37,070 nucleotides of DNA from Rhodobacter capsulatus (GTDB taxonomy: Bacteria > Pseudomonadota > Alphaproteobacteria > Rhodobacterales > Rhodobacteraceae): positions 1 through 37,070 of the forward strand of contig NZ_SWJZ01000112.1 of NCBI RefSeq assembly GCF_005144475.1. The letters run 5' to 3'. A program made the translations under genes and the position numbers. The number at the start of each line of letters is the position of its first letter. Position 1 is the stretch's first letter. Below, one piece after another: positions 1-24,396 of the stretch. The notes beneath the pieces are model-generated. The model made no database searches. It saw nothing but the letters and a program-made list of their open reading frames with translations, and had not been told where the DNA came from.

Positions 1-86
1 GGCGGGCATCCACGGCGGGCATCCACGGCGGGCATCCACGGCGGGCATCCACGGCGGGCATCCACGGCGGGCATCCACGGCGGGCA
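1..86. repeat. 13-bp tandem repeat, 6.6 copies
   Basis: Six perfect head-to-tail copies of GGCGGGCATCCAC fill positions 1-78, and a partial seventh copy (first 8 bases) ends at 86. The array starts at the first base of the window, so its true length is unknown. There are no spacers between units, so it is a simple tandem repeat and not a CRISPR array. It lies about 260 bp upstream of the proposed gajA start. No function is visible; it could be a variable-number repeat. Confidence 0.95.
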
Positions 87-344
87 AAGTTCGTCTGTCG
101 TCTGAGACATTCGTGTCTTGCACAGCATAGCTCTCGGCGCCGACGTGAAGGGCGGAGAACTGCCGTTCGCGGCAGGTGCGAAATGTTCTCTAGGTGGGCG
201 CGCAAGCCGACCTTCGCGGCAGTTTCAGTTGCACAATGCAGAAATGGAAAAGCTGTCGCATGCAGACTAAGCGGTAGCAACCCAACGATTGGTTGCGTAT
301 CAATCTTTGGAAGAGCCTCTAGTTCAGAGCGAAGTCCAGGGAGT
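87..344 (+). other. leader region upstream of gajA
   Basis: This stretch holds the presumed promoter and leader of the Gabija-like operon, but no clear -35/-10 pair can be fixed. The gajA frame is open back to an ATG at 183, yet the residues it would add look nothing like an OLD-family N-terminus. Two small hairpins are visible: AGACA/TGTCT around a TTCG loop (105-118), and GCAACC/GGTTGC (277-296). The decamer TTCGCGGCAG occurs twice. Confidence 0.5.
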
Positions 345-2135
345 ATGAAGTTGCCTATTATTGTGGATGAAGTCCGTATTTCTGGTTTTAGGGGCATCCG
401 AAACTTTGAGATGTCACTGCCACGGGTCGCAGTTCTGATAGGCCCGAACAACAGTGGGAAGACTTCCGTCTTGAAGGCCCTGCAACTCGCCCTAGGGGAC
501 TATGGACGACGCTTGTCGGACGAAGATTTCCACATCGATGGCAATGATGAGCGAGCGGAAAAAATTGTTGTAGACGTTCGGATTGTGCCAACGAACGACG
601 AGGGTGGCCGTGAGAGTGTATTTTCAAAGGAATGGATCACCGAATTTGGCGACAGGATCAGGGCAGATGCAACCGGTAATCAGTTCTTTGCCTTCCGAAC
701 CACAGCCCAACCGCAAGCCGCAAAAACAGGCTTCACAATCGAACGGCACACCCTGCAAGAATGGGTTGAGTACACAAAATGGCTTACAGTTGTGCCCAAT
801 TCCAGTCTTAAATTTTCGAGCCGCTCAGAATTCATTCCATTTGTGTCGATTGATGCCCAGCGAGATATACACCAGGAACTAAATGAAAGGTCATCCTTTG
901 TTGGAAGAGTGCTTTCGCAGGTGAAATACAATAAAGTTGACGTTGACTTTCTTGAAAGTATGATCGCGGACATCAACAAAGAAGCCGTTTCGAAAAGCGC
1001 GCCCTTGGCGCGATTGAAAGAGCAGCTAAATGCCCTCAACGAGTCTTTTGGTGGTGGGGGAAATGCTGAAGTAACGCCGTTCCCTAAAAAGTTGCGAGAC
1101 CTTTCGAAGAATTTCAGCGTGCATTTTGGAAACTCTGCCGCTAGCTCCTTTTCGATGGAGTACCACGGCATGGGCACACGAAGCTGGGCGTCCATGTTGA
1201 CAGTAAAGGCCTTCACTGGCCTGATGGCTGAATTGCACGAAGATGAGGCTGAACCTTATCATCCTATTATTGCTGCGGAAGAGCCAGAAGCGCACCTGCA
1301 CCCGAATGCACAGCGCTCGCTCTTCGCTCAGTTGTTCGACGCCACTGGGCAAGCAATCGTTAGCACTCACTCGCCATATCTTGCTGCGATGTGTTCTCTC
1401 CCGAATCTAAGGTCTTTGTCAGCACGTGGAGGGCACACACAGTGCTACAGTTTGATAGATGGGTTGGCAGAAGAAGAACTCAAATCCCTTCACCGACAGG
1501 TCATCCGTGATAAGGGGGAAATCTTGTTCGCCAAAGCACTCATCTTATTTGAGGGGCAAACCGAGGACCAAGTTGTTCCTGCAATGTTTGAAAGATGGTT
1601 TGGCGCGACAGCATTCACGAAGGGAGTAAATTTAGCCGCAGTAAATGGCAGAAATTATACACCATATCTCAAGCTGGCACTCAGTCTTGGCGTGCCAACC
1701 GTTATCGTAAGCGACAATGATACAAAGAATGGCGTGTCTTCAAAAGCCGATGTCGATGCGCAGATCGCAAAGCTAACCTCGGAGGCAAGTTTAGACTTAA
1801 CACCAAACTGGTTCCGGTTGGAGTATCTTACGGACCCAAATGATTTTGAGGCCGAACTAGTTCATTCGTGTGGCCTGCGAGCCGAAGTAATCGACTCCTT
1901 TATGCGAATGAAAGAAGGATTCAATCCAAATCCGCAATTCCTTGCTGCGCAGCGTGCGGCACTTGAGGCTAAAAATGACGAACAGTTAATCGGAGAAATG
2001 CGCAATTCGAAAACCCAGTATTCGGGTTTCCTTGCTGACGTCATCTCTGAGAACAAGCTGGGTAAGGGCCGTGAGGCTCTTGTGCCTCAAGCACTCCAAA
2101 ACGCATTCACGACAATTGAAGGGTGGCTAAATTGA
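345..2135 (+). CDS. gajA: GajA-like ATPase/TOPRIM endonuclease (Gabija, OLD family)
   Basis: This 596-residue protein has the order of OLD-family nucleases. Walker A (GPNNSGKTS) is at residues 33-41, a signature-like GMGTRSWASML at about 275-285, Walker B (AAEEPEAHLHP) at about 310-320 and the switch-histidine motif STHSPYL at 340-346. The C-terminal TOPRIM domain shows FEGQTED (catalytic Glu near 403) and SDNDTK (about 456-460). The ATG at 345 is chosen because AGGGAG lies just upstream and the protein then begins like relatives; the spacing is short. The next gene is a UvrD-like helicase overlapping by 4 bp, which is the gajA-gajB layout of the Gabija anti-phage system. In that family GajA is a nucleotide-sensing DNA endonuclease. 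The AT-rich codon use, unlike the core genes, suggests transfer. A stand-alone OLD nuclease is the alternative, but the helicase partner argues against it. Confidence 0.88.
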   Translation: MKLPIIVDEVRISGFRGIRNFEMSLPRVAVLIGPNNSGKTSVLKALQLALGDYGRRLSDEDFHIDGNDERAEKIVVDVRIVPTNDEGGRESVFSKEWITEFGDRIRADATGNQFFAFRTTAQPQAAKTGFTIERHTLQEWVEYTKWLTVVPNSSLKFSSRSEFIPFVSIDAQRDIHQELNERSSFVGRVLSQVKYNKVDVDFLESMIADINKEAVSKSAPLARLKEQLNALNESFGGGGNAEVTPFPKKLRDLSKNFSVHFGNSAASSFSMEYHGMGTRSWASMLTVKAFTGLMAELHEDEAEPYHPIIAAEEPEAHLHPNAQRSLFAQLFDATGQAIVSTHSPYLAAMCSLPNLRSLSARGGHTQCYSLIDGLAEEELKSLHRQVIRDKGEILFAKALILFEGQTEDQVVPAMFERWFGATAFTKGVNLAAVNGRNYTPYLKLALSLGVPTVIVSDNDTKNGVSSKADVDAQIAKLTSEASLDLTPNWFRLEYLTDPNDFEAELVHSCGLRAEVIDSFMRMKEGFNPNPQFLAAQRAALEAKNDEQLIGEMRNSKTQYSGFLADVISENKLGKGREALVPQALQNAFTTIEGWLN

Positions 2136-4036
2136 ACCTGGCGCTATCTGAAAATCAAAGGGAAATTGTTGAGCAGCCTGTCCAAGGTTCAATTCAAGTT
2201 CTTGCCTCGGCTGGTTCGGGAAAGACACGTGTGTTGACAGAGCGAATTCGGTTCATTCTTTCCAACGTGAAAAAGGATGGAGTGATCGCCCTAACATTCA
2301 CTAACAAGGCCGCAACTGAAATGAAAGAGCGGTTAACTCGGGGTGGGTATGACGAAGAACGAATTTGGGTGGGTACAATTCACTCAGTCGCTCAACGTAT
2401 CCTAGAACAGTATGGCCACACTATTGGTTTACCTTCAAACGTGCAGATTTTCGAACGCGACAAGGATCGCATGGAGGTGTTCCTCGAAGCATTGAGGGCT
2501 GATGGCGTGGATATAGACGACTATCTTGCTGTGGACGATCCGAATGAAAAGAAATCCAGAGAGCGCAACCTCCAAAACTACATGGATGGGTTTTCCACCA
2601 TAAAGAGAGAAATGCTATCCGAAGAAGAGGTTTCGGAGCGTTTTTCTGCAAACGCCGGTATCTGGCGCGTCTACAATGACTATCAGAACGCACTTCTGAA
2701 CAGTCGGGGAATAGACTATGACGACATTCTTTGCTACGCCCATCGAATTCTTCTCACGCAAACTTGGATTGGCGACATCTATCGAGCCAAATACAGCCAC
2801 ATCTGCGTGGATGAAGCTCAAGACCTTAATCGGATTCAGTACGAATTCGTGAAGGCATTGGCGGGAAATAAGGACGCCAATATCATGATGGTCGGGGACC
2901 CCGATCAGATGATCTATGGGTTCAACGGTTCCTCGTCCCGGTTCCTTTGCGAGAGTTTTATTGCGGACTTCACACCGAAAGTCTTTCGCCTGACAGAGAA
3001 CTACCGCAGTTCAAAGGCTGTAGTCCGAGCAGCAAATGGGCTTCGGCCTGGCGCGCAGAAAGAAACTGAATTTGCTCTGGAGGGTACCGTTGAGCTTGCC
3101 GCTTTCTCCTCCGAGGAGGAAGAGGCAAATTGGATAGTGTCCAGCGTTCTCAACCTTACGGAGCTAAAAACCCATCAGGAAATAGAGGGGACCATTTCCG
3201 TTGAAAACATGGTGGTCATCGCTCGAAACCGGTTCGTTTTTGCCAAGCTTGAAAATGCTCTCGGAGAGCAGAATATCGAGTACAATGTTAAGATTGGCGA
3301 ACGAGAGAAGCTACCAGTGTCGCTATTCGGGCAAATTCTGGATTCGGCCATTAGAGTGAAACTCAATCCCAACGATTGGGTGGACGGGAAAAAGCTATGC
3401 CAACTTCTCGGTATCTCTGCCCCATCAAGTTGGGGGAACGACGACCTGCTGAGCCAGTTTCGTAATGACTACATGGATGCAGGCCGGGGCAATGATAATC
3501 TGATCGGAGACCTGTTGAGTGAAGTAGAGACGCTGCACTTCGAGAACCCAAACATCCTGAAGTTCGAAAAGGTATTCGAAAAGAAACTGCGCGAACTAGT
3601 GGTCGCTGAACCTAGCGAAGAGAAGAGACTGGAAATTGATCGCAGCCTCGTTGAACTGAAAGAGTTTTCCGACCGGTGGACAAGATTTCGGCGTCTCGGT
3701 CTTGGCAACACACTCAGCGCTTTTAGGAATGCGACAGCATTGGGCAAGTTGAACCCAGACGCGTCTGATGCCGGATTAACGCTAAGTACCGTCCACACAA
3801 TGAAGGGGCTTGAGAAGGACATAGTGTTCTTGATGGGATTTTGTGAAGGAACATTTCCTGACTACCGCGCAAACACCGATGCGAAGATAAACGAAGAACG
3901 CAATACTGCATTTGTCGCCGTTACACGGGCGCGGCGGTGGTTGTTTGTTTCATATCCACAGTCGCGGATGATGCCGTGGGGATCGCCAAGATCTCAGCAA
4001 CCCTCTCGCTTCATTTCGGAAATGGGACTGACTTAG
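2132..4036 (+). CDS. gajB: GajB-like UvrD/PcrA-family helicase (Gabija)
   Basis: This is a superfamily 1A helicase of about 634 residues with every main motif visible: Walker A ASAGSGKTR (about 26-34), Ia FTNKAATEMKERL (about 56-68), II VDEAQD (about 226-231), III GDPDQMIYGF (about 255-264), IV TENYRSS (about 288-294), V STVHTMKGLE (near 550) and VI VAVTRARRWL (near 597). A TTG start at 2132 is preferred: its TTGA overlaps the gajA stop, and GAAGGG lies 8 nt upstream. A GTG at 2123 in the same frame would sit on that ribosome-binding site. In Gabija, GajB is the helicase/ATPase partner that GajA needs. It is longer than the roughly 500-residue Bacillus GajB that I recall, so it may carry a larger 2B or C-terminal region. 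Confidence 0.87.
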   Translation: MNLALSENQREIVEQPVQGSIQVLASAGSGKTRVLTERIRFILSNVKKDGVIALTFTNKAATEMKERLTRGGYDEERIWVGTIHSVAQRILEQYGHTIGLPSNVQIFERDKDRMEVFLEALRADGVDIDDYLAVDDPNEKKSRERNLQNYMDGFSTIKREMLSEEEVSERFSANAGIWRVYNDYQNALLNSRGIDYDDILCYAHRILLTQTWIGDIYRAKYSHICVDEAQDLNRIQYEFVKALAGNKDANIMMVGDPDQMIYGFNGSSSRFLCESFIADFTPKVFRLTENYRSSKAVVRAANGLRPGAQKETEFALEGTVELAAFSSEEEEANWIVSSVLNLTELKTHQEIEGTISVENMVVIARNRFVFAKLENALGEQNIEYNVKIGEREKLPVSLFGQILDSAIRVKLNPNDWVDGKKLCQLLGISAPSSWGNDDLLSQFRNDYMDAGRGNDNLIGDLLSEVETLHFENPNILKFEKVFEKKLRELVVAEPSEEKRLEIDRSLVELKEFSDRWTRFRRLGLGNTLSAFRNATALGKLNPDASDAGLTLSTVHTMKGLEKDIVFLMGFCEGTFPDYRANTDAKINEERNTAFVAVTRARRWLFVSYPQSRMMPWGSPRSQQPSRFISEMGLT

Positions 4037-4263
4037 GTGGAACGAAACAAATTTACCTCGTGAAGGCTGTTTCTTTCCGTTTGCGCGTCCAACGAATGGC
4101 CGCTTCGAGCACATTTTGACCATTGCTGCAAGCTGTCCAAATTTCTGCTATGGTGCAACTTCAGGCGCGTACCTTGCGATATGTTGATAGCTTGAAAGCA
4201 CAGCTAATGGGTTCCCTGCCAACCTGGATGGCTATTTTCAACTGAACTTCTGGAGTATGATCG
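4037..4263 (+). other. gap between gajB and the nuclease-vWA gene
   Basis: These 227 bp hold no convincing gene, and no terminator hairpin is visible. A TTGACC at 4116-4121 could be a -35 element but has no well-placed -10. The next gene may therefore have its own promoter or be read through from gajB. Confidence 0.4.
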
Positions 4264-6087
4264 TTGGCCAGTGACATTTATCGAGACAGCCTATCTGCGT
4301 GGAATGCGCTAAGTCGTGTTGGAGGCCTTGAGACCGATGGCCGCGATGAAGACCTTGTTGAAATTATCCACAAGCAACTGGACGCAACAGCGCTCAACCT
4401 TGAAAGTGCGCTCGCTAATGCGCCCATCGCGCAGTTTCTGTCGGCGCTTTTTTTCTCAATTCAACCTTTCGCCTCAATGTTCAGGGACATACTCTTGTTT
4501 TTTGAGAAATCCAATGCTGTTGAAGGGCAATCGCAGTTACGCATTAGTGTAGGAGACGAATTTCTAGAATTTCGACACTTTGAGGAGTTCCTCGAAAGTT
4601 GGAGTAAAATCGACGTACTGCTCGACGTTCCAGCGCTTGATCGTGCCGACGCATTCATCTTGAACACGCTTCGAATAGATTTTGGTGGCTACGAGTTCCT
4701 CAAGAATGCGCTCGAGCGCGAAAAACCTCCAAATACTGGATTTCCAGATGTGGATGACTGGCTTCGAGAATATGACGTTGGTCGCTACGCACCCTTCCCT
4801 TCAAGCCTTCTGTCAGAGCATTTTCCTAAGGGATTGTCGGATGCCGTTTCGCTGGTCCAGGCGGCTATCTCGATCATCCGTCAGCGCGGCCTGACCAGAT
4901 CGAAAATGATGAAGGAGCATCGCGACCGAAGCTATGCGTCGGTCGCTGAAGAGGCACTACACCCGTGGACGATCGCTCAGAACGAAACCGACTATTGGCT
5001 TCGTTCGCATGTCGGATTTCTAGCCAACATTCTCAAGTTGCCGGAAGAAGAACAGCAAAGATTTGCTTCGGTGGCATCGGTCAGGTTTGCGCAGTTTCCG
5101 CGCCTTAGCATTCCTGGAACGATTGAGGCCAGAGACCTAGAACGGCTATTGTCTTTGCCTGCTTGGAAACAGCGCTACGAAACCTATGGAGTATGGATTG
5201 CAACACAGATCATTCGTGCTCTCGAAGGCCATGACGTTGCAGTCAATATCGACAATGGTGAACTTAAATTTGCATTCGCCGAAGCGAGAATCGCCGACGT
5301 AAAGACTTCAATGCCGGAGTCGTGCATCTACGCAGAAAAGCGCGTACCAATTGTTGATCCTGTTGGCAAAAGCAGAAAGAACGCCGTGCAACCAGACTTT
5401 AGCCTTTGGAAGAAAGGGACAAACGGTGAGGACTGCGTACTGGTCGTCGAGGTAAAGCACTATAAGAAGCGCTCACGACGTAACTTTCGGGACGTTTTGA
5501 TCGATTATAGTCGAGCTCACCCTCAAGCTCACGTCGTCCTAGTCAATTACGGGCCTGTTGGGGAAAAAATTTCTGACTTGCCCATCGAGATCCAAAACCG
5601 CTGCGAGATGATCGGCCCACTCACACCCGAAACACATAAGGCACTTACTAATTTTCAGGAGATGGTGAGTGACAAAGTGGGTGAGCCAGTGCTCAAGTGG
5701 CAATCAACTGGGCCAGCACCAGCACATGAAATCGTTGCACTCGATGTGTCGCTTTCGATGAGTTCCATCTTGGCGTCCTCAGAGTTTCGGTATTTCCTTT
5801 CAAGCACATTGGAGGCTGACGCTACTATCGCTTTGATTGACCAAGATGTTCGAGCAATCTGTCGAGCGAGTGAGTTTAATCGCTGGGTTTCCGAAAATGA
5901 ACTTGGCCAATCAACTTCCCTTGCGGCACCAGTTGAAGAGCTTTTTTCGCGGTACTCGCCGATTATTGTCATCACTGATGAGGACGGCTTGCGGAGTCTC
6001 GAAAATCTCAATTCAGAGAGCATATTAAACCCGCTCGGCGACGCGAGAAATGTCATTTTTGTACGACTTAACCGTCAAATACAGTAA
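4264..6087 (+). CDS. PD-(D/E)XK nuclease-like protein fused to a vWA-like domain
   Basis: I do not recognise this 607-residue protein as a named family. The N-terminal 280 residues are mostly helical with no motif I can name. Residues about 300-430 look like a PD-(D/E)XK nuclease core: a helix with E306, then QPDFSLW (D378), then VVEVKHYKK (E396, K398), followed by a basic stretch. Residues 488-600 look like a von Willebrand A domain with a full metal-ion-dependent adhesion motif: D494-x-S496-x-S498-M, GQST551SL, and VITD572. The start is TTG at 4264, with GGAG 8 nt upstream and no better in-frame ATG. It follows gajB on the same strand and shares its AT-rich composition, so it was probably acquired with it. 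The role is inferred: a nuclease whose vWA domain binds a partner protein, acting with Gabija or alone. Confidence 0.72.
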   Translation: MASDIYRDSLSAWNALSRVGGLETDGRDEDLVEIIHKQLDATALNLESALANAPIAQFLSALFFSIQPFASMFRDILLFFEKSNAVEGQSQLRISVGDEFLEFRHFEEFLESWSKIDVLLDVPALDRADAFILNTLRIDFGGYEFLKNALEREKPPNTGFPDVDDWLREYDVGRYAPFPSSLLSEHFPKGLSDAVSLVQAAISIIRQRGLTRSKMMKEHRDRSYASVAEEALHPWTIAQNETDYWLRSHVGFLANILKLPEEEQQRFASVASVRFAQFPRLSIPGTIEARDLERLLSLPAWKQRYETYGVWIATQIIRALEGHDVAVNIDNGELKFAFAEARIADVKTSMPESCIYAEKRVPIVDPVGKSRKNAVQPDFSLWKKGTNGEDCVLVVEVKHYKKRSRRNFRDVLIDYSRAHPQAHVVLVNYGPVGEKISDLPIEIQNRCEMIGPLTPETHKALTNFQEMVSDKVGEPVLKWQSTGPAPAHEIVALDVSLSMSSILASSEFRYFLSSTLEADATIALIDQDVRAICRASEFNRWVSENELGQSTSLAAPVEELFSRYSPIIVITDEDGLRSLENLNSESILNPLGDARNVIFVRLNRQIQ

Positions 6088-6330
6088 CTCCCATTCGACT
6101 GAAAAGCAGGCACTGGTGTTCTGGCAGCGAGAGCTCGCTTCGTCCGCACTGCCGACCTTGGGCTGCCAAGCCATGCTGCACAATGCCATGGCCGTCCGCT
6201 TCGCGGAAGCCGCACTTCGGCATGAGCGCATGCTCGACCGGCGGGTAAGGGCCGGCCATGTCTCCGAGGCCAAGACCAACGCGAGCCGAGTTGGCGACGT
6301 GGCGATGGCGGACAGGCCAAGGGTGCCGGT
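6088..6330. other. convergent intergenic region
   Basis: This is a 243-bp gap between the plus-strand nuclease-vWA gene and the minus-strand AIPR gene. Composition changes here from AT-richer to GC-rich, marking a seam between two defence modules. Overlapping frames on both strands look like chance openness. I see no strong terminator. Confidence 0.5.
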
Positions 6331-8145
6331 TCAGGCATCCTGCAAAACCCGAAGTTCCGGGATCATCTCCGCATTGTCGGGATACTGGGCTGCCTGCACC
6401 GCATCCCAGGTTGCGGATCGTTTTGCCAGTTCAGAAAACTGTGCCCCTGCGCCCACACGCGTGAAGACAGCATTCACGACACAGGACCAGTTCCACAGAA
6501 GGCGTGAAAGCGGCCCCGATGTGTCCTGTCGCTGCCATATTTGCATCAGGTCAAGTCTATCGCCCAGGCGTTGACCCAGGATGGCGACGGTGTAGCTCGC
6601 AACGTTGACGTAGCCCTGCTTGAACGTGTCCTTGGCTTCCTTTGCCTTGATCTGCTTTTCGATGGCCTTGAAGAGGATGACCTTTGCGATCATCTCCTTG
6701 TACCAGGTGACGTCGAGTGCTGCGGGCACGATCTCCGGCGTGTCGTCCAGGGCGGACATGAACGCCGCAAAGTTCTTCTCGCCGCCCAGAGCCACCTGGT
6801 GCGGAAGCCCACGCCAGCTTTCGTGGTATTTGGCGATGTCATTTTTCGTGAGTTTGCGCCGGGTCGGGATAACCTCTTGCAAGCGGGTTTTCTGCGCCTT
6901 GGTCCGTCCATCGCGGAGCATAGCAACGGCATATGCCCCGGCCGCACGCTCGTAGAACCAGCGGCCTGTCCCGTCCGGGCACCAGGTGTCGTTCGCCAGC
7001 TTCTCGAGCTGGACATGGAAGGTGCGGTTTGCCGAGAGGTCGGAGGTCTTAACCGCCGTCTGGCTGTTTGCGTATTGCGAGATGCGCGAAATCAGGGTTT
7101 CACGCCCCTGATCGTCGCCCTCCCGTAGAATGACGATTTTTGCCGGAATCATCACATGTGACAAATCCAGATCCTTGTTGTCGCGGCTGGCGAAGTAGAT
7201 CGAGGATGTGGTCTGACCGCCGTTGACGATCTGCAGGCCCTTCAGCAGAGAAATGCCGACCTGACCATCCGCACCCCGGCTGATGCCCGCCTCGTCGCAA
7301 ACGATAACCAACCCGTTGTTGTAGGCCAGGAAATGCCCGGGCTCTTCTTCGAGGGTCGTCGCAATTCCGGCGTTCACCTTCTTGCGGGTCCCGAGGAAGG
7401 AGCGCACGTTCGCCTCCAGAAGGGTGGTGTTGAACCGCTCATAGAGCGATCGCAGCACCTCGCCGGGAATGGCTGTAAGGGCATAATCGTAGTCCGCCCC
7501 CGGGTCCGCCACATGGACACAGGGAAGCGGGCGGCCGATGGCTTGTTCAAAGCTCACCGCGATCTCGTCGCGCGGCTTTCCGGTCGTGTGCCGGAAAAGG
7601 CGCTCCATATCCATGGCTTCAACCTGGATCAGGCGACCTTCGACGTCACGCGGGGTGAAGTGTTTCGATTTCGTTTGCCCGTCCGTCAGGACGATGACCC
7701 GCAGCTGATCGAGATCGTGCCAGCGTCGCTCCAACGTCTCGACCAGCTCGAGGATTGGACTGGTGGGGTCCAGTCGTCCGGACAGCTTGCCGGTGCCCGC
7801 ATTGGCCGCGAATTGGACCGCCGACTTCGCCACGCCCGCAACATCGGAATCCCTGAGCTGAGTGAGATGCTCGGTGCCAAGATAATGCGTCAGGAACAGG
7901 TCGATGCGCGTATCATCGGCGGAGATGCTGAAGCCGGAAATCCGCAACTTGGCATTCCGGATCGTTCCTTCCCAATGGCAGACCTCGGGTGCTTCGGAAA
8001 TCCCCGCCGTGCTTACGTCGTCCATAGCGAGTTCAGCGAAGACCAGTTCCTCTTGCGGGAATGTTTCATCAGGGTTGCTGGCGCGTTCTGCCATGACGCT
8101 CTGGACGTGATTGCGGAACTCGGCGTGAAATTCATGCAGGTTCAT
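6331..8145 (-). CDS. AIPR family protein (MZA system)
   Basis: This 604-residue protein carries the AIPR (abortive infection phage resistance) signature: YNNGLVIVCDE at about residues 275-285, then GLQIVNGGQTTSSIYFAS at about 303-320. The N-terminal 200 residues contain a beta-rich part with VIVLTDG (about 150-156), of the type that precedes AIPR cores. It is the last gene of the five-gene operon. ATG 8145 is preferred to the TTG at 8160: GGAGA lies upstream, and the overlap with the preceding gene becomes 14 bp, exactly as at the Z1/PD-(D/E)XK junction. AIPR proteins occur in abortive-infection and modification-linked defence loci; in the MZA system AIPR gives the final letter. Its biochemical activity cannot be read from the sequence. 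Confidence 0.88.
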   Translation of the reverse strand: MNLHEFHAEFRNHVQSVMAERASNPDETFPQEELVFAELAMDDVSTAGISEAPEVCHWEGTIRNAKLRISGFSISADDTRIDLFLTHYLGTEHLTQLRDSDVAGVAKSAVQFAANAGTGKLSGRLDPTSPILELVETLERRWHDLDQLRVIVLTDGQTKSKHFTPRDVEGRLIQVEAMDMERLFRHTTGKPRDEIAVSFEQAIGRPLPCVHVADPGADYDYALTAIPGEVLRSLYERFNTTLLEANVRSFLGTRKKVNAGIATTLEEEPGHFLAYNNGLVIVCDEAGISRGADGQVGISLLKGLQIVNGGQTTSSIYFASRDNKDLDLSHVMIPAKIVILREGDDQGRETLISRISQYANSQTAVKTSDLSANRTFHVQLEKLANDTWCPDGTGRWFYERAAGAYAVAMLRDGRTKAQKTRLQEVIPTRRKLTKNDIAKYHESWRGLPHQVALGGEKNFAAFMSALDDTPEIVPAALDVTWYKEMIAKVILFKAIEKQIKAKEAKDTFKQGYVNVASYTVAILGQRLGDRLDLMQIWQRQDTSGPLSRLLWNWSCVVNAVFTRVGAGAQFSELAKRSATWDAVQAAQYPDNAEMIPELRVLQDA

Positions 8146-9151
8146 CGGCCGTCTCTCCAAGCTGCTGGAACATCATGTCCATGGATTGCGGTTCGATATC
8201 GAGGCTCTCGATGTCAAGATCATACTGTGCATTGCGGATCTGGCCCGGCAGTGTGTCCCGGCGCAGGCAGGGAAACCCGTCCCCGAGCGGAAAGCAGAGC
8301 ATTTCGCCGGCCAGCAGTTTTCGGGTGTAGCGGTCGGCGTGTTCGTCCATGAAGCGCGACAACATCAGAAGCGCGTCGAACTGCCTGCGCACGCCAGACC
8401 CGTCCATGATGTCGCGAAGGCGGTTCACGCATTGGGTCAGGGTCTCGCCTGCCTCATCCTCGACAAAGCGGATGGCGCATAGGAACATGGGTCTGCGGTC
8501 CGCATCCAGCTGCTCGACGGAGTTGATGCGGGCAATGAAACCTTGCGCCGCTGCCGTGCTTTTTACCTCGATGGCGCCGCTGTCGACGTGGAAATCCTGG
8601 GCGGCCCTCAGCGGCCCTTGCCAGCTGTCCAGCGCCACCAGTGCGGAACTGGAATGACCAACCAGCTTCTCGAGCATCAGAAGTTCGCCCATGAGACCAG
8701 CCTGTTTCTCGGTCGAAAGCGGTTTGCGGCGCTGGTTGGCCATGAACTCCTGCCAGTCACGGACGCGCACGAAGAAGGCATCCAGGATTGCGCGGGGCGA
8801 GGGGCAATCAAGGTGTTCGAGATGACGGAGGACGTTGACAGCCATAAGGGCGAACAGCTCGTGCGAACCGTCAATGAGGCGCACGAGGGCAATGGCCTCT
8901 CGGCCTTGCGATCCCGGTCGAGACGGAACACGCAGGACGTCGAAGCCACCGCCGCCCGGAAGCCGGTCTGCGGGCTTGATCGTCCCGGCGGGAAAATCCA
9001 CGACGATGGCTTCCCGGCTCCCGGGAAAACTGCGGCCGGCGTGAAAGACCACCTTGCCGGTTTTGTGGAGCGGGGACAGTGCCCACTCTTCGCCCTCGAC
9101 GTCTTTCAGTGCCCGCCATGTGCGGGCGAGGCCCTCCTCAGACCACGTCAT
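8132..9151 (-). CDS. PD-(D/E)XK motif protein (DUF4420-like; MZA system)
   Basis: This 339-residue protein belongs, by its sequence pattern and neighbours, to the PD-(D/E)XK/DUF4420 family that sits between Z1 and AIPR genes. The candidate active site is DFHVDSGAIEVKST, where the Asp, Glu and Lys of the nuclease fold can be assigned. Just upstream is the helical LMGELLMLEKL, which supplies the early Glu. ATG 9151 is chosen over an upstream ATG at 9196 because GGGAGG lies 9 nt before it and the overlap with the Z1 gene shrinks to 14 bp. The product is predicted to be the DNA-cleaving, or at least nuclease-fold, subunit of the system. This is the 'DUF' of the MZA name as I understand it. Confidence 0.82.
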   Translation of the reverse strand: MTWSEEGLARTWRALKDVEGEEWALSPLHKTGKVVFHAGRSFPGSREAIVVDFPAGTIKPADRLPGGGGFDVLRVPSRPGSQGREAIALVRLIDGSHELFALMAVNVLRHLEHLDCPSPRAILDAFFVRVRDWQEFMANQRRKPLSTEKQAGLMGELLMLEKLVGHSSSALVALDSWQGPLRAAQDFHVDSGAIEVKSTAAAQGFIARINSVEQLDADRRPMFLCAIRFVEDEAGETLTQCVNRLRDIMDGSGVRRQFDALLMLSRFMDEHADRYTRKLLAGEMLCFPLGDGFPCLRRDTLPGQIRNAQYDLDIESLDIEPQSMDMMFQQLGETADEPA

Positions 9152-11987
9152 CGACCATTGCCTCCCAGAGCACGGAGTTCGCCATGTAGTCGGCATCCCG
9201 GATCCTCAGTTTCGAGGGGCTGCCAGGAAAAGACAGCGACCAGGCGAGCGCCGGATCGCGCCCTTTCAGGGCCGGACAGGATGACTTGTCCGGGTCCAGA
9301 AGATAGAGCAGCAACAGCCCCCGTTTGCGGTCCGGTTGCAGACCGAGGGCCGCGTGACCAAACCCGAGGACGTGCCGGATCGCGGGCCCACCGGGCTCGT
9401 CTGGCGGCCCCTTGGCCTCATTGCGCTCGGCATCGCCGCGCCATGTCTCGCGTGTGAGAGCCAGCGCCGCTTCGTATTGTTCCTGCGTCAGATCGATAGT
9501 CTGATCGCGCGGCGAAATAAGGGTCTTGATGGAATAACGGTCCGTGTGAGCGCCAATGGCTGCCCGTTCGAGCATTCCGACCTTCGTTCCGCCGATTGCC
9601 CCTTCCGTTCCCTTTGCAGAGCCCACCAGCGCGACGGTCCAATTCGAGAGTTCTCCGGTTGCGCTCATCCTTTCGATGAAATCGGCGAGCATTGGCGGCA
9701 CGACGCGATAGGACTTCGAATGTGTCTGATAAGATCGGAGAAATGCCACAATCGGGATTGCCGGTACATTGCGCCAAAGGGCGCCATTCCAATTCTGCCC
9801 TTCTGGCAGAAAGTGCTGATCCTGCAACGGACGGCTTTCGCCCATCGAGGCCACGAAGCGTGATCCTGTCTCGAAATTTCGCTCGTGTTTTTCGTCGATC
9901 GGGAAAGACACGGTTTGCATCAGGCTGCCAGAATAGGTCAGATGCACCGGCTTTGCGGATCGCATCTTGGCCTTGGAGGTTACGGTGAGCGTATGGTGTG
10001 AGAGAACCCGCAAACCGAAATCCCGCGGCGTGGCGTTGATCGCCGCCATGTTGTCGAACTCTTCGCGCAACTCCTCTGCCGCGTCGGCAATATGTCCGAA
10101 CCATTGGATCATCTCGCCCGATGTGTAGAGCCGGCAGACATCGAGGTATTTGTCACGATAACCGAACCAGCGCCCCATCTGCATGAGCGTATCGTACATC
10201 TTTGTCGTGCGCATGAAGTAACTTGTGCAGAGCCCTTCCAGCGTAAGGCCTCGCGCCAATTTGTCTCCGCCGATGGCAATGACCTTCAGCCCCTTCTTGT
10301 CGTTCTCGGCATAATCGAGGGCATCCTTTGCCGATCCGTTGATCCCCCGGACCTCGATGTCCTGAAGCAGAAAGGGCAGAACGGCGCGGACCTCTGACCA
10401 TGTCACATCCTCGCCCTGCGGCACGTCCGGAAAGGCATCGCGCACCCGCGCCATCTCGGGATGGAAACGGGTCTCGAAATCGCTGCGCATAAGCGCATCG
10501 AGATTGGTCAGATCGATGTTGCGGTCATAGCGCCGGGCCATGTGTCGGATGAACTCCTCCACCTGAGCCACGATTTCGCCCTGCACGGAGGTGAACCGCG
10601 AAACGTGGATCAGCATGGAACTGTGCCTGTGCCCCTGTCCACGCACCTTGCGCACGGCGCAGGCAAACACGAAAGACCGTATGGCTTCCTGCAATGCGCG
10701 GGGCAGGACGCGTTCTCCGCCGATCCTGGGGCTCCATCCGTTCTTGTGCGTTGGCGGCATCCATTCCATGTGTTCGTCATCGTCGAGCCTGCGTGCGAGA
10801 GGCAAGTCCTCCGGAACCGACGAGGCAGACCCGAAGACTCGACCCGGCCCGATGTAGTTGGTCGGCGCACCCAGGCTGATGATGAATGCCGAGGGGAACA
10901 GGTCCGGTCCATGCTCGGCCGTGGCACTGCGTTCATGAATGAAGATGTTGGCGAAAGGCGTTGCCGTGTAGCCGACGTAAGCCTTTCTCGAGAAGGTATG
11001 CAGGACGCGACGGATCAGCCCGTTCAGAACCGTAGGCGAATGTTCGAGGTCGGGCTGGCCGTCGTCACCGATCGGCACCTCCCCGGTGTCCACGGATCCG
11101 TGGTCCGACTCGTCGTCGATGACAAGGGCAGGCAGGGCACTGACGATCCGCCGCCCCGTGTCCGGGTCCACGGCATCGGCGGCGTGGTTTTCCAGCCAGT
11201 AGACCAGCCGCTCGAGCACGTTCTTCTGCTTCTTGACCACGAAAAGCCAGGGGCGCTCCTCGGGCTTGACGTTCAGCTTGCGCGACGTCGCCGTGTCGAA
11301 ATCGCCCTTGTCCGACCGGTTCGTCGCGCAGTTCGGTTGCTGGGATTTGTCCTTGTCCAGTTCGCCGACGCCAACCAGGGGGAGGTGATCAACATTCACC
11401 AGGGTCGCGTATCCGAGGAAGCCCTCGTCAAGACGGATCTGCGTCTGCGCCCGGAGATTGTTGTGCAGACCCGCCAGCACAATGATGATCTTGTAACCCG
11501 CATCCGCCGCCTTGCAGATCAATCCGGTGTAGTTCCCGGTCTTGCCCGATTGCACATGCCCGACAACCAGACCGCGGCGATCCCAGTTTCCCGGACGCAA
11601 CGGATCTTCAAGGTTGCCGAGAACCTCGTCGGTCGATTTGTCCAGAGCATCCAGCGCCTTCCACGGAAGCTTTTCTTCCATGTATTCGGAATAGCGGCGC
11701 CAGTAACGCCAACCCTTCTTGCGGTCCGCGTTCAACCAGGGCTCGTGCCCGTCTTCGGCAACCAGCGAGGCGTTCTTGCCGATCCCGTGACTGGACCGCC
11801 GGATCATTTCGTCAATAACGGCTTCCCTGTCGACATTCTCGAACAACTCCGGGTCGATCATCTCGACCTTGCGCAAGACGCTGTCGATCAGGTCCGCCGT
11901 GACCAGCTCTCCGGTCTTTTCGATCTGGCGGCGGACAAAAGGCTCGCTGGCCTTCAGGATGTCAGCAAAATCCCTGCTCTCCGACAT
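9138..11987 (-). CDS. Z1 domain helicase-like protein (MZA system)
   Basis: This 949-residue protein is a superfamily 2-type ATPase with a Z1 domain. Walker A is GHVQSGKTGNYTG (residues 143-155), motif II LVIDDESDHG (288-297), motif III YVGYTATPFANIF (337-349), a motif V-like GGDKLARGLTLEG (573-585) and a motif VI-like QMGRWFGYR (603-611). The GRWFGYR and TATPFAN strings are typical of Z1 proteins. ATG 11987 follows AAGGAAAGG, 16 bp after the ATPase gene ends. It is the third gene of the operon and would act as the DNA translocase or helicase that works with the MutL-like ATPase and the downstream nuclease. Confidence 0.92.
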   Translation of the reverse strand: MSESRDFADILKASEPFVRRQIEKTGELVTADLIDSVLRKVEMIDPELFENVDREAVIDEMIRRSSHGIGKNASLVAEDGHEPWLNADRKKGWRYWRRYSEYMEEKLPWKALDALDKSTDEVLGNLEDPLRPGNWDRRGLVVGHVQSGKTGNYTGLICKAADAGYKIIIVLAGLHNNLRAQTQIRLDEGFLGYATLVNVDHLPLVGVGELDKDKSQQPNCATNRSDKGDFDTATSRKLNVKPEERPWLFVVKKQKNVLERLVYWLENHAADAVDPDTGRRIVSALPALVIDDESDHGSVDTGEVPIGDDGQPDLEHSPTVLNGLIRRVLHTFSRKAYVGYTATPFANIFIHERSATAEHGPDLFPSAFIISLGAPTNYIGPGRVFGSASSVPEDLPLARRLDDDEHMEWMPPTHKNGWSPRIGGERVLPRALQEAIRSFVFACAVRKVRGQGHRHSSMLIHVSRFTSVQGEIVAQVEEFIRHMARRYDRNIDLTNLDALMRSDFETRFHPEMARVRDAFPDVPQGEDVTWSEVRAVLPFLLQDIEVRGINGSAKDALDYAENDKKGLKVIAIGGDKLARGLTLEGLCTSYFMRTTKMYDTLMQMGRWFGYRDKYLDVCRLYTSGEMIQWFGHIADAAEELREEFDNMAAINATPRDFGLRVLSHHTLTVTSKAKMRSAKPVHLTYSGSLMQTVSFPIDEKHERNFETGSRFVASMGESRPLQDQHFLPEGQNWNGALWRNVPAIPIVAFLRSYQTHSKSYRVVPPMLADFIERMSATGELSNWTVALVGSAKGTEGAIGGTKVGMLERAAIGAHTDRYSIKTLISPRDQTIDLTQEQYEAALALTRETWRGDAERNEAKGPPDEPGGPAIRHVLGFGHAALGLQPDRKRGLLLLYLLDPDKSSCPALKGRDPALAWSLSFPGSPSKLRIRDADYMANSVLWEAMVDDVV

Positions 11988-12003
11988 GCTCGATGGCCTT
12001 TCC

Positions 12004-13512
12004 TTATTTGCTTCCCAGACCTGCGATCAGATCGGGGCGTTTGTCGAATGGCCGGGTTCGCGACAGTCGCTCCCGAGCCTCTGTCTCACTCAGGCCACGC
12101 GACTGCACCAGTGCATCGAACATGGCCTCCATCATCTCGACCAGGGCCGGATCGGCCTCATCCTCCAGAATGCTCACCGGAGGCTCGTCATCCGCGGCCG
12201 TGTCCAGCCAGATCCGTTGCACCGGAACGGTCGCTTCGACCAACCGCAGCAACGCCTCGATATCCCGGGCCAGCGGACCGGCACGGTCCATCACCGAGCG
12301 GTAGAGGTCATGCTTGCGTGACAGCCGATACGCGGTGGCGCCGGAGGGCCGTTTGATGGCCTCCCAGATATCGGGCATGCCCTCCTTGCTCTCGGCCCCG
12401 TCGGACACCAGCCGACCGCGAAACGCATAGACTGTCCGCGCAATCTCGCGGGCCTCCCGGGCAAGACGCAACAGTTGCGGTCTCAGGCGGACGGGCGGGC
12501 TGGCGGTGGATTTCAGGACGTTGATGTTCCATTCGCTGTCCATGGTATTCGGAATATCCAGCCGGATCCTGGCGAGGCGATGCGCTTCATCCCGGGGCCA
12601 CTGGCGCCCGCGCTCGCCGAGCCGCAGCCAACCGGACACCGCAAGCAGCCGCCTGTTGCGATAGATGTGAAACCCCTGCTGCGAGGTCCATCCGTCCGGA
12701 CCGGCCGCCGCTTCGAACTCTGCCGAGGTCTCGAACCTGTCCTTGTGCGGCAGGACGTGCATCTGAACCCGGACCTCGGGCGCGCCGAGAAGGGAATACT
12801 CGAGACTTTCAAGGCGTTTCGACAGGTTGCCCGTCAGGAACGGGTCCCAAGGTTTGACACGCTTGCCGTTGAGTTTCAGGTCGATCTGCCCCGAAGCCGT
12901 CCCGATGAGGCGGTGGAACACCATGGCGAGGTGCCGTTCGAGTGTTTCGAGAGCCTCGAACAGGTCATCGCTGGTGAACCCGGGAGTGACGATCCGGTCT
13001 AGGTCCTCCCACAGAACAACTGTCCCCGGGGCGTCAGCATGGCCAATGCCCAGCCGTTCCTCCGACCCCGGACGCGGCCCCTCGATCATCGGCCAGTCGC
13101 CTCCGGCCACGCCCTCGAGCACGTCGAGGTCCCACCGAAGGCAGGCTGGCGCTCTGCCGGACCGGCGCGAATGCACCGTAAGCGCCCGCGCCTGCGAGAA
13201 GCTGGCCGTCTTCAACCCCATCCCGAACCGTCCGAGATCATCCGCGCGCCGCGTATGGCGCGGATCGCGGGCGCCCAGCTGCATGGCCTTTTCCAGTTCG
13301 GCATCATCCATGCCGCAACCATCATCGGTGATCCGGATCCAGCTGTCGGTTCCCGCCCACTCGACGTGGACATCCACGGTTCTTGCCCCGGCGGAAATCG
13401 AGTTGTCGATGATGTCGGCGACCGCTGTTGCGGTGGTGTAGCCGAGGCCGCGCAGGGACTCGATCAACATCCCGGCCCGCGGAGGTGCGTTGCGTGTCTT
13501 GATGTTGGACAT
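12004..13512 (-). CDS. MutL/MORC-like GHKL ATPase (MZA system)
   Basis: This 502-residue protein has an N-terminal GHKL (Hsp90/MutL/histidine-kinase) ATP-binding domain: ATAVADIIDNSISAGA (28-43, with D36 and N37), DDGCGMDD (63-70) and DLGRFGMGLKTASFS (92-106). The rest fits the transducer and C-terminal region of the MutL-like ATPases that Iyer and colleagues (2008) linked to restriction-modification operons and to the origin of eukaryotic MORC proteins. It supplies the M of MZA. Its ATG follows the stop of the sigma-like gene with no gap (TGAATG), so its translation is probably coupled to that gene. The predicted role is an ATP-driven clamp that joins target recognition to the Z1 and nuclease subunits. 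No endonuclease motif of the DQHA(X)2E type is visible. Confidence 0.9.
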   Translation of the reverse strand: MSNIKTRNAPPRAGMLIESLRGLGYTTATAVADIIDNSISAGARTVDVHVEWAGTDSWIRITDDGCGMDDAELEKAMQLGARDPRHTRRADDLGRFGMGLKTASFSQARALTVHSRRSGRAPACLRWDLDVLEGVAGGDWPMIEGPRPGSEERLGIGHADAPGTVVLWEDLDRIVTPGFTSDDLFEALETLERHLAMVFHRLIGTASGQIDLKLNGKRVKPWDPFLTGNLSKRLESLEYSLLGAPEVRVQMHVLPHKDRFETSAEFEAAAGPDGWTSQQGFHIYRNRRLLAVSGWLRLGERGRQWPRDEAHRLARIRLDIPNTMDSEWNINVLKSTASPPVRLRPQLLRLAREAREIARTVYAFRGRLVSDGAESKEGMPDIWEAIKRPSGATAYRLSRKHDLYRSVMDRAGPLARDIEALLRLVEATVPVQRIWLDTAADDEPPVSILEDEADPALVEMMEAMFDALVQSRGLSETEARERLSRTRPFDKRPDLIAGLGSK

Positions 13513-15870
13513 TCAGATCAGGTTCCTGAGCAACCGTTGATTGGTCCGATGCCCGATTTCGGCCAGTCGCTTTGCCTCGATCTGCCGGATGCGCTCGCGC
13601 GTGACACCATGGATGGCCCCCAATTCCTCGAGGGTCATCTCGTCCTCGCCGCGCAGCCCGAAACGGCGAACGATCACATCCGCGGCGCGCTCCGGCATGT
13701 CGGCCAGAAAATGCTCTATGATTTCAGTGCGTTGCCTGGCGAGGACGTGACGGAACTGCGGAGAATCCACGTCCAGACAATCGTGAACCATTTCTTCGAA
13801 TGGAACCGGTCTTCTGGGAATGCGCCTGATCTCCCTGATGGTTTCTGGCGGGATCTCCATTTCTTCCGAAATCACCGAGATGATGGCCTCTGCCGACAAC
13901 TGCTGCGAGATACCTTCCTCGAGCCGGTCGACCTTTCGCAAAACGATTGCGCGATGCGACGGGACGCGAACCAGCGAACCGGTGTCGTCCAGCGCCCGGG
14001 TGATCGATTGTCGAACGCCGAATTGGCAATAGGTCATGAACCGATTGCCGCGATCCGGTTCGAACAGATCGATGGATCGCATCAAACCGAACACTCCGTC
14101 ATGAACCATATCCTCGATGTCATCGACAGGGGCTTCTCGCCTGCTGGCCTGGCGGCGGACAAGCGCAAGGTGCTCGAGCAGGATCTCGCGCCGAAAATTT
14201 TCCCGCGCGCGCAGCGAGGCTTCGATCCGATGCCGGACATCGTCCAGCTCGGGGTTGGCACGAAGGCCCTGCGCGATCAGATCCACCGCATCCCTCGAGA
14301 GTTTCAGTGCCGACACGGCACTCAACGCGTATGCGCGTTGTTCGGCGGTGACTGCACCATCCTCCAGCATCGTCTGATAGCCAACGAGGCAGGAGAGTGA
14401 CGCAGAAAGGACCTCTCCGTCCGGCGTTTGCCGACCATGTTGTACGTCGAGGTCAGTCAGCAGACTGGGGGGCACGGAACCGGCCTCGACCTTTTCTCCG
14501 AGCATGACCACCACGGACACAAGCGTTTCGTTGCTGACAAGCGCGCGGCACATATCTTGTTGGCTGGCAGACAATTCCCGGAACAATCGTGCCTCTGCGC
14601 GGGCTGACAACGGCTTGAATTCCACCCCTGGACGCATGTTGGACCCGTTGCAGATGCACGCCAGCAGATCCGCCACATCCTCGGGGTCCGAAGGATGCCC
14701 GGCAACGAAAACCTCGCAACTCTCGTCCTCACACGGCATCAAGCCGAGGTTTGTAAGTTCGTGAACCAGATTGCCACGCACGGTTTCCGCGTCGAAGAAC
14801 CCGCGAATATCCCCGATCAGTGTATCGACATCCTCACCATTGCAGGTGCCTGCCGCAAGCACGCGCTCCACCCACGCCATCAGGGCGCTTTCGGAAATGG
14901 CGTGAAAGCGCGTCGTTGGCGCCGTCGCATGGGGCGCCGATTTGCGCCCGGTCCGAACATCGAGGTAGGATCGGAATGTGGCCCCGTCAGCAAACTCCGC
15001 CGTCTGTGGCAAGGGGCCGACCACATCTTCGGCATCGATCCGGAAGCCGCCACGGCGGAGGTCATCGAACTCCAGCTCGGCACCGTCCTCATCTCCAAGG
15101 CGCGTGACCCGACCTTGCACGGCGTCGAAGGACGCAACGTAGTCATCGCGTTCGAGGTCGCGGTGGAAGTCCTCGGCTTCTTCCTCTCCGTCGAAATCCA
15201 GATCCAGATCGTCGAAGGCGAAAATGTCGTCTGTGGCTTCCTTGACAGGTTTAGACACGGGGAGGACCGCTGTCGAAAGGTCCGGCCGCACATCGTCGGG
15301 CGCGACAAAGCTCTCCGGCAAAAGGCTTCGCAGCAGCCCGGCCACCATTGCGTGACCATTCTCCGCAGCTCGGTCGTGGGGTTTCTTGCCCTCGAAGTTC
15401 ATCGCGGCGGGGTTGGCGCCCGCCTTGATCAGCTGATCGCAGAATTGCAGTCGCCCCTGCGACGCGCAGATATGTAAAGGGGTGTCCCCCTTGGCGTCGA
15501 TGGCCCCGACGCGTCCGGCCGCAATGAGCGCGGATACCGCCCCGGGCTTGCCTTGAACGAGACCGACCAATTCCTTGATGGTCAGCGCCTCGTGAATGGA
15601 ACTGTGCGACGAAACCGAGGCATGACCCGCCTCACGGCTCTCCAGTTCGTCCGCAAGGTCGTGATGTCCCGCCTCGCGCGCCCTTTGAGATGCTCTTCGC
15701 CCCTCTTCGTCCAAGGTCGATGCACTATGACCAAGCTCGAGAAGCCGCATCACGACGCGCGACCGACCTTTACGTGCGGCATCATGGAGGGGAAATGCGG
15801 CATTCGTCATCGCGGCGGGAACGCTGCCCCCGATACCCGTCAGACAAATGTCCTCAGTTGCCAAACCCAC
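13513..15870 (-). CDS. ankyrin-repeat sigma-70-like protein, first gene of the MZA operon
   Basis: This protein of about 785 residues has three parts. The first 185 residues contain ankyrin repeats, the clearest being GDTPLHICASQGRLQFCDQL and the following KAGANP unit. The middle 370 residues start with an acidic stretch (IFAFDDLDLDFDGEEEAEDF) and match nothing I can name. The last 230 residues are a sigma-70 core: region 2 (MVHDGVFGLMRSIDLFEP, then GNRFMTYCQFGVRQSITRAL), region 3, and a region 4 helix-turn-helix (TLEELGAIHGVTRERIRQIE). GTG 15870 is chosen because GGCAGGG lies 6 nt before it. TTG 15885 is too close to the candidate -10 element, and ATG 15810 lacks a good ribosome-binding site. 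The product may direct transcription of its own operon or sense phage through the ankyrin part; both are inference. Confidence 0.82.
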   Translation of the reverse strand: MGLATEDICLTGIGGSVPAAMTNAAFPLHDAARKGRSRVVMRLLELGHSASTLDEEGRRASQRAREAGHHDLADELESREAGHASVSSHSSIHEALTIKELVGLVQGKPGAVSALIAAGRVGAIDAKGDTPLHICASQGRLQFCDQLIKAGANPAAMNFEGKKPHDRAAENGHAMVAGLLRSLLPESFVAPDDVRPDLSTAVLPVSKPVKEATDDIFAFDDLDLDFDGEEEAEDFHRDLERDDYVASFDAVQGRVTRLGDEDGAELEFDDLRRGGFRIDAEDVVGPLPQTAEFADGATFRSYLDVRTGRKSAPHATAPTTRFHAISESALMAWVERVLAAGTCNGEDVDTLIGDIRGFFDAETVRGNLVHELTNLGLMPCEDESCEVFVAGHPSDPEDVADLLACICNGSNMRPGVEFKPLSARAEARLFRELSASQQDMCRALVSNETLVSVVVMLGEKVEAGSVPPSLLTDLDVQHGRQTPDGEVLSASLSCLVGYQTMLEDGAVTAEQRAYALSAVSALKLSRDAVDLIAQGLRANPELDDVRHRIEASLRARENFRREILLEHLALVRRQASRREAPVDDIEDMVHDGVFGLMRSIDLFEPDRGNRFMTYCQFGVRQSITRALDDTGSLVRVPSHRAIVLRKVDRLEEGISQQLSAEAIISVISEEMEIPPETIREIRRIPRRPVPFEEMVHDCLDVDSPQFRHVLARQRTEIIEHFLADMPERAADVIVRRFGLRGEDEMTLEELGAIHGVTRERIRQIEAKRLAEIGHRTNQRLLRNLI

Positions 15871-15890
15871 GATGTACCCTGCCAATCTCG

Positions 15891-23866: not shown

Positions 23867-24396
23867 ACACGAGGGGGTGTATAGCGGCGGTGTTTCGGGG
23901 GTGCAAGGGGGGAGCTGCGTTTTTTTCACCGCCCCGAAACAAGTCTTCCGCAACCGCCCCCTTCCTCCTCGCAGGAACGAAAACAGGCGGTTCCGGCGCT
24001 TTTCTTCGGGCGGCGGGGCCATCGGTGCTGCAAACACCCGCATGCCCCCGCCCCCAGATCGGCAAGGACGACGCGACTGTTCACGAAAACGTTTCCTTTC
24101 GAGATGCCCCCCACGTGAGCGCAGCGGGAATCGCTTCGAACCGGGCCCTCGCCCGCCAAGCTTGCCCCGCCCCCCGGTTGGACGGCCGTCCGACCAGCAG
24201 GCCGCGCCGCAGATCGACGGCGGCGCAGCGGCCCGGATCCGGGACACCCGTCCCGACATCGCCCCAACCGCGCATCGCCCCACTAAAAGCTGACCCAAAT
24301 ACTCATATTTATTTCTTGACCAAATTAGTCATGCATGCCATCCCGGTCCGGCCCGATACCGGGCGACATGACCTTTCCAACCCCGGAGGCCCTGCC
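23867..24396 (+). other. 530-bp region upstream of fbpA
   Basis: No convincing gene is seen; open frames on both strands look like GC-rich chance. Structures include GTTTCGGGG/CCCCGAAAC arms about 30 nt apart (about 23893-23940), the palindrome GGACGGCCGTCC (24180-24191) and CCCGGATCCGGG (about 24233-24244). The iron-type operator near its right end is listed separately. Confidence 0.5.
24317..24331 (+). promoter_or_regulatory. candidate iron-responsive operator (Iron-Rhodo-box-like)
   Basis: TGACCAAATTAGTCA is an imperfect palindrome (12 of 15 positions symmetric) in an otherwise AT-rich patch, 66 bp before the fbpA start. It resembles the TGAC/GTCA palindromes predicted for iron-responsive regulation in Rhodobacterales. 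The regulator (IscR-, RirA- or Irr-type) cannot be told from the site alone. Confidence 0.5.

Follow-up and report, generated by a model that had tools for sequence, protein, structure and literature searches.

The window, by which we mean the whole 37,070-nucleotide stretch of Rhodobacter capsulatus DNA that was analysed, carries a gene for a 607-residue protein of three parts that lies between a Gabija system and a Mza-type system (Table 1). As the preliminary description of this DNA had it, the open reading frame is found on the same strand as gajB and in the same low-G+C block. It follows the gajB stop codon by 227 bp, and the G+C content is 48-52% over positions 1-6000 and at least 59% in all later 1-kb steps. 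A GGAG stands 5' of the TTG start codon, as read from the sequence, and in the alignment this start residue is shared by several near relatives. A promoter scan of positions 3900-6400 found no sigma-70-like site. The open reading frame is intact and has all its motifs, which rules out a pseudogene, and an antisense artefact is ruled out by the existence of relatives in several phyla. Downstream, the five genes of the Mza set are convergent with the nuclease-vWA gene; upstream, the gajA frame is open from position 183, with its likely start at the ATG listed in Table 1, according to our reading of the sequence.

Table 1. Features of the nuclease-vWA locus and its neighbours, in positions of the window
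Feature	Position	Strand	Basis or remark
gajA, neighbour, not part of the feature	345..2135	+	PADLOC GajA, E 3.3e-214
gajB, neighbour, not part of the feature	2123..4036	+	PADLOC GajB, E 5.2e-259
Spacer between gajB and the nuclease-vWA gene	4037..4263	+	Last position similar to the Phaeobacter Gabija locus: 4062
Gene for the 607-residue three-part protein (P0001)	4264..6087	+	TTG start; stop codon included
Conserved, mainly helical N-terminal region, residues 1-285	4264..5118	+	AlphaFold2 secondary structure
PD-(D/E)XK nuclease domain, residues ~299-432	5158..5559	+	E306, D378, E396, K398
Compact DUF2201-type vWA-like domain, residues ~487-603	5722..6072	+	MIDAS D494-x-S496-x-S498, T551, D572
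Mza-type system, neighbour, not part of the feature	6331..15885	-	MzaE, D, C, B, A in coordinate order, PADLOC

Several other features of the window were recorded on the way. The PADLOC model of MzaA was matched over residues 548-781 of 790 only, and the N-terminal part of that protein gave a weak ankyrin model match (E 0.0032). Positions 1-86, at the start of the contig, form a perfect 13-bp tandem repeat of 6.6 copies. Between 16053 and 23668, genes that read as Vsr-like, C5-methylase-like, relaxase-like and tyrosine-integrase-like are found, a content that suggests an integrated mobile island; the Vsr-like and C5-methylase-like genes both have blastp relatives at locus L019, one of the loci described below.

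The adjacency to gajB on the same strand and in the same low-G+C block speaks for one of two earlier proposals, namely that the gene encodes a third component of an extended Gabija locus. The closest GajB in a plasmid collection, 90% identical, is encoded on a conjugative plasmid of Phaeobacter inhibens (61 records matched), and the nuclease-vWA gene was found in none of five Gabija plasmid loci chosen from the top of these records (Phaeobacter, Aeromonas, Yersinia, E. coli and Acinetobacter), where tblastn of the window protein gave a single chance-level match of 50 residues (E 0.56). At the DNA level, the window is 84% identical to the Phaeobacter plasmid from 149 to 4062, and the similarity then stops, 26 bp past the gajB stop codon and about 200 bp before the nuclease-vWA gene. 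Furthermore, no neighbour of the 20 relatives clusters by blastp with GajA or GajB of the window, although PADLOC covered a chosen part of these neighbours and an OLD-like protein at L009 has weak GajA scores (best 4.7e-13). An additional locus from the same family (L024, with a 68%-identical GajA) ends before the end of gajB and is uninformative on the gene that follows. Thus, with no constant linkage to gajAB, we rejected the idea of a Gabija subunit on the grounds that none of the five Gabija loci carries the gene, that the similarity breaks at 4062 and that the neighbours of relatives include no GajA/GajB cluster; there is only a very remote chance that the protein is a third Gabija component. 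The Gabija block itself (149-4062) has clean ends relative to the P. inhibens plasmid, and judged by sequence Gabija was evidently transferred as a unit.

The protein consists of three conserved parts: a mainly helical N-terminus, a PD-(D/E)XK domain with a complete active site and a DUF2201-type vWA domain with a complete MIDAS. Conservation was read mainly from an alignment of 15 rows (A2), which is without L018 and the plasmid copies (alignments A3 and A6 are also without L017 and L021). Because its rows diverge to as little as 24% identity to the window protein, the conservation of the motifs is far beyond chance. Residues 290-432 are the best-conserved part of the protein, with a mean commonest-residue frequency of 0.64, and the nuclease core that had been described beforehand proved correctly placed: D378, E396 and K398 are kept in all 15 rows and E306 in 14, its position being occupied by D in L015. 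Structure prediction had been proposed as a check, and AlphaFold2 gave confident models of the full-length protein (mean pLDDT 83.0) and of residues 286-607 (mean pLDDT 81.2), in which E306 belongs to a helix spanning 304-318, D378 stands just before a strand at 379-384, and E396 and K398 are found in a strand at 389-398. This is the PD-(D/E)XK arrangement, with D and (D/E)xK on adjacent core strands and E on the first core helix. PD-(D/E)XK domains cut nucleic acids. When the model of residues 286-607 was compared with the PDB using Foldseek, the matches of highest probability were restriction-type nucleases, BbvCI first (E 2.1e-3, probability 0.89), with BsaWI also matching the nuclease domain (probability 0.85), followed for the nuclease part by BsmI, MspJI, AspBHI, PspGI, AgeI and Can2 amid unrelated proteins; VC1899 was, like Can2, among the fold matches. 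None of the matches, to the PDB or to viral models, had an E-value below 0.001. Considering that these alignments are loose, mixed with unrelated proteins and never past E 0.001, the assignment of the fold rests on the sequence motif together with the model.

The first ~285 residues, which the preliminary description had passed over, are conserved (mean commonest-residue frequency of 0.51 over 14 rows) and mainly helical, and a Foldseek search with the AlphaFold2 model recognised no DNA-recognition fold in them.

At the other end of the protein, the MIDAS-type motif that had been pointed out is also where it was said to be. Of the rows, 14 extend to the C-terminus; among these, D494 is kept in 14, S496, S498 and D572 in 13 each, and T551 in 12, while a further aspartate of the domain, D526, is kept in all 14. 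The row that is without S496, S498 and D572 is the actinobacterial L021, and the position of T551 is N in L016 and is also not T in the plasmid copies L002-L004. Model and alignment together place this complete DxSxS...T...D set in a Rossmann-like fold. When 390 genomes of the order were searched with a profile, the matches were the window's own gene and one other protein, the latter over profile positions 474-576 (E 4.8e-4, an E-value for one genome) and hence not over the nuclease part. This second protein (418 residues) belongs to the DUF2201 'VWA-like' proteins (PF09967, E 3.0e-27), and hhalign of the C-terminal profile against it gave a probability of 92.8 and a pairwise E-value of 3.9e-7, with every MIDAS position aligned (DxSxS, the middle D, T and TDxDG). 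This profile match is the strongest support for the vWA part. By comparison, neither the CoxE-type vWA protein of the window's own genome nor an unrelated control protein gave a significant hhalign result against the vWA part. Foldseek matches of the C-terminal part in the PDB were PTMP1 (E 0.025, probability 0.35), a mussel protein carrying vWA domains, and the vWA protein 4fx5 (E 0.47). Against the vWA assignment stands that Pfam gave no match for the window protein itself and, among 15 members, VWA_CoxE in three (best E 0.0032), VWA_2 in one and DUF2201 in one (E ~0.1). Altogether, the conservation, the AlphaFold2 and Foldseek results, with no Foldseek E-value below 0.001, and the DUF2201 profile match support the fusion of a nuclease with a vWA-like domain that had been proposed.

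No existing name could be given to the protein. Direct scans with Pfam, vWA families included, and with NCBIfam 2026 gave no match, PADLOC 2023 gave DpdE alone at E 0.044, which was treated as chance, and PDB sequence searches, for which the protein and profiles A2, A3 and A6 served as queries, gave none or weak unrelated matches. Among the matches listed in a search of open-access titles and abstract starts, a scope to which bioRxiv preprints do not belong, neither such a fusion nor a third Gabija gene of this kind was found, so that the earlier statement that no named system has this fusion holds for Pfam, PADLOC 2023, NCBIfam 2026 and these texts.

Relatives were found at 20 loci beyond the window, in four phyla, making 21 places in all. 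Five of them (L002-L006) are on rhizobial plasmid records, where the copy at L005 is split around an IS66 element and that at L006 is shortened and stands beside one. The other 15 (L007-L021) were picked up when 84,980 species genomes were scanned once with a pattern, and belong to Alpha-, Beta- and Gammaproteobacteria, Planctomycetota, Bacteroidota and Actinomycetota; an intact relative of 595 residues is encoded at L018 (9965-11749). The family is rare and well defined (15 loci per 84,980 species genomes), and it stands outside the PADLOC 2023 defence library. Its occurrence around the window is sporadic, the own genome being the only hit among 18 genomes of the genus and 398 of the phylum (profile A2), among 385 of the class (profile A1) and among 198 of the family (single-protein query), and each of the 12 genomes checked for copy number has one copy. 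The 21 places are not independent, because L002, L003 (both plasmid copies) and L016 are close kin in the tree and because L005 and L006 look like fragments of the same kind.

In the same tree, the window protein groups with relatives from genomes of four other families (L007-L010; Phyllobacteriaceae, Stappiaceae, Sphingomonadaceae and Erythrobacteraceae), a grouping that speaks for horizontal transfer. Recombinase genes lie within 0.4 kb of the relative at L009 and L021, and an integrase-like gene lies 0.8 kb from it at L010, as recognised from reading and from a DUF6538 match that is below its cut-off (E 3e-4). The dN/dS ratio between two plasmid copies is 0.22, indicating purifying selection on them. 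No relative was found in 50,697 phage records or in two pattern scans of viral contigs, and plasmid searches with L018, L019 and L021 gave no plasmid record beyond the first five. The relative at L021 (9959-11806) keeps the N-terminal and nuclease parts and has a C-terminus without the MIDAS motif, which suggests that the sensor domain may be exchangeable.

The preliminary description had proposed to score how often relatives lie near gajA/gajB or other defence genes. Of the 21 places, 10 (the window, L002, L003, L004, L006, L008, L009, L017, L018 and L020) have a named defence gene within about 10 kb, counted from a PADLOC or NCBIfam match, from record annotation or from a blastp cluster with a matched protein; no gajA/gajB was seen beyond the window by blastp cluster. 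Neighbours were clustered with a greedy choice of open reading frames, the window being covered up to position 24,000, and PADLOC was run on chosen neighbours, 40 proteins and then 96 (the eight longest open reading frames at 12 of the 20 loci). Besides Gabija and Mza in the window (PADLOC), the systems include an IetS-type subtilase at L002, L003 and L004 (by PADLOC at L003, by blastp cluster at the two others), preceded at L003 and L004 by an ATPase gene that is presumably ietA; SIR2, TIR and short-Argonaute-cluster genes at L002, L003 and L006 (by annotation and by clustering with the L017 Argonaute); a 6A-MBL cap2_3 protein at L008 (NCBIfam or PADLOC match); a PDC-M01/Septu-like pair at L009; a REase-APAZ gene with a short Argonaute at L017, where pAgo is 0.3 kb upstream of the relative; MzaC-E-type genes at L018; and LmuB of Lamassu at L020. 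PADLOC also recognised an oligonucleotide cyclase among the 96 proteins, and its locus, from motif reading, is probably L012, which would make an eleventh defence-adjacent place. The ten remaining places (L005, L007, L010, L011, L013-L016, L019 and L021) gave no recognisable named system among the neighbours scanned; at L007, the closest relative, the neighbours are a polyphosphate kinase, a transporter and two proteins without a match, while patatin-cluster genes are found at L010 and L019 and subtilases at L014. L008 (3504-8488) and L010 (5783-9961) have a common three-gene set directly beside the relative, consisting of a gene that reads as an HExxH metalloprotease-like gene, an MBL-like gene and a patatin-cluster gene, and in the Pedobacter locus L019 a lone patatin precedes the relative with open reading frames that overlap by 4 bp. 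No partner gene is constant, the most recurrent neighbour cluster occurring at no more than 4 of the 21 places.

As a control, the 96 neighbour proteins were compared, at a PADLOC threshold of E 1e-20, with 96 proteins drawn from 20-kb stretches of the 12 contigs on which these loci lie. The neighbours matched 45 redundant PADLOC models, and the 25 of these 45 that are listed, each in one member, correspond by name to at least five proteins (LmuA, LmuB, PDC-M01A/PtuA, MzaE and the cyclase). The control proteins matched five models (mad3 in two proteins, two ShosA models, Ppl and PsyrA), a total of six member-model matches and thus at most six proteins. The counts of matching proteins are therefore similar (at least five versus at most six) and do not separate the two sets, and it is the specificity of the matches that favours the neighbours, with a best E-value of 2e-232 versus 2.7e-98 and members of whole systems. 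With around six defence systems per 5-Mb genome, one would be met within a 20-kb stretch at a few per cent of loci. Judged from its neighbours, an association of the family with defence is likely.

Known systems resemble this protein in part. Nucleases of the Can2/Card1 type have a CARF plus PD-(D/E)XK architecture. Like them, the window protein is an effector that unites a PD-(D/E)XK nuclease with a Rossmann-like sensor domain, but its sensor is C-terminal and is vWA-like with a metal site, as opposed to a CARF pocket. In the parts of PMC7159879 that bear on MoxR-vWA ternary systems, vWA proteins are already described together with effector domains that include restriction-endonuclease-fold enzymes, and one FtsH-type class has its vWA behind an N-terminal all-helical domain. 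The same parts describe a MoxR AAA+ ATPase and additional core components as belonging to those systems, whereas no such recurring set was found here and the nuclease of the window protein is N-terminal to its vWA. In the window, no MoxR AAA+ gene with a VMAP, iSTAND or FtsH-type protein lies adjacent, the genes next to the window gene include no ATPase beyond GajA, GajB and the Mza genes (Pfam, PADLOC), and the blastp clusters contain no recurrent ATPase neighbour except the one before the IetS-type gene (2 of 21 places, L003 and L004). The TerY-P proteins of CoCoNuT, as described in the sections of PMC11090510 considered, also bring a MIDAS vWA into a nuclease defence context, but as separate genes with a kinase and a phosphatase and with no PD-(D/E)XK fusion. 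As for Gabija, it is a neighbour in the window with no conserved linkage in the loci examined.

The best explanation, to which we give a probability of about one half, is that the gene encodes an independent, horizontally mobile single-gene effector whose nuclease is triggered by its vWA domain. Having no constant partner, the family would most simply be explained by a self-inhibited nuclease that is released when the vWA captures a ligand. In a resting cell, the nuclease would be held inactive by its own flanking domains. According to PMC7159879, vWA domains carry a bound metal ion, and an extended or unstructured peptide is bound through the MIDAS motif; in the window protein, the Mg2+ of the vWA might capture an acidic residue or an extended peptide on a protein that is newly present or altered in infected cells, which could come from the phage or belong to a neighbouring defence system. 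The signal would be relayed by the helical region, probably via a changed oligomer state, and the nuclease would then cut nucleic acid, with DNA as the most likely substrate; its target would be either the invader's or, as abortive infection, the cell's own. Of the two earlier proposals, an independent single-gene defence protein is thus compatible with the results and favoured: the independence from Gabija is borne out, and the defence role is drawn from the neighbours.

Next best after this self-inhibited nuclease ranks an accessory effector that docks on neighbouring systems, because the relative stands directly behind same-strand genes at L002 and L003 (the IetS-type subtilase), L008 and L019 (patatin), L010 (the MBL-like gene) and L017 (pAgo). 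Such an add-on effector or adaptor would be switched on by the adjacent defence system, or feed it, with the vWA docking on a partner, and PMC7159879 proposes vWA domains as co-chaperone and peptide-binding modules. However, the partner varies from place to place and is unrecognised at several loci, and no family recurs at more than 4 of the 21 places, so that we find this reading rather unlikely. To a restriction-like enzyme, whose N-terminus would read a DNA sequence or modification while the nuclease cuts incoming DNA and the vWA oligomerises or recruits a chromosomal MoxR-type AAA+ ATPase, we would give a similarly low chance: restriction enzymes, the modification-dependent MspJI and AspBHI among them, provide the fold matches of highest probability, but these alignments are loose, the N-terminal region has no recognised DNA-recognition fold, and methylase clusters are found at no more than two of the 21 places, the Vsr/C5-methylase pair of the window and L019 being non-adjacent, some 9-12 kb away. 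Less probable still is a role outside defence, as a DNA-processing or maintenance nuclease of mobile elements. The plasmid copies (L002-L006), the recombinases or integrase near L009, L010 and L021 and the ordinary-looking surroundings in what was scanned or read at L007, L011 and L015 would fit such a role, against which stand the variety of defence neighbours, the lack of a constant mobility partner and the lack of any relative in the phage records and viral-contig scans. The third Gabija component comes far behind all of these.

With the vWA-triggered single-gene effector as the preferred reading, we tentatively propose that the proteins may form a new family of immune effectors made of one protein each. 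In them, a PD-(D/E)XK nuclease fused directly to a MIDAS vWA would be operated by a ligand, being released once the vWA recognises an infection-specific protein, and would work without an ATPase, a second messenger or a guide. If this is true, a nuclease would be triggered, within a single polypeptide, by a metal-dependent domain for protein binding that is known from the partners of chaperones, and the family would be a compact model of phage-protein recognition by cells.
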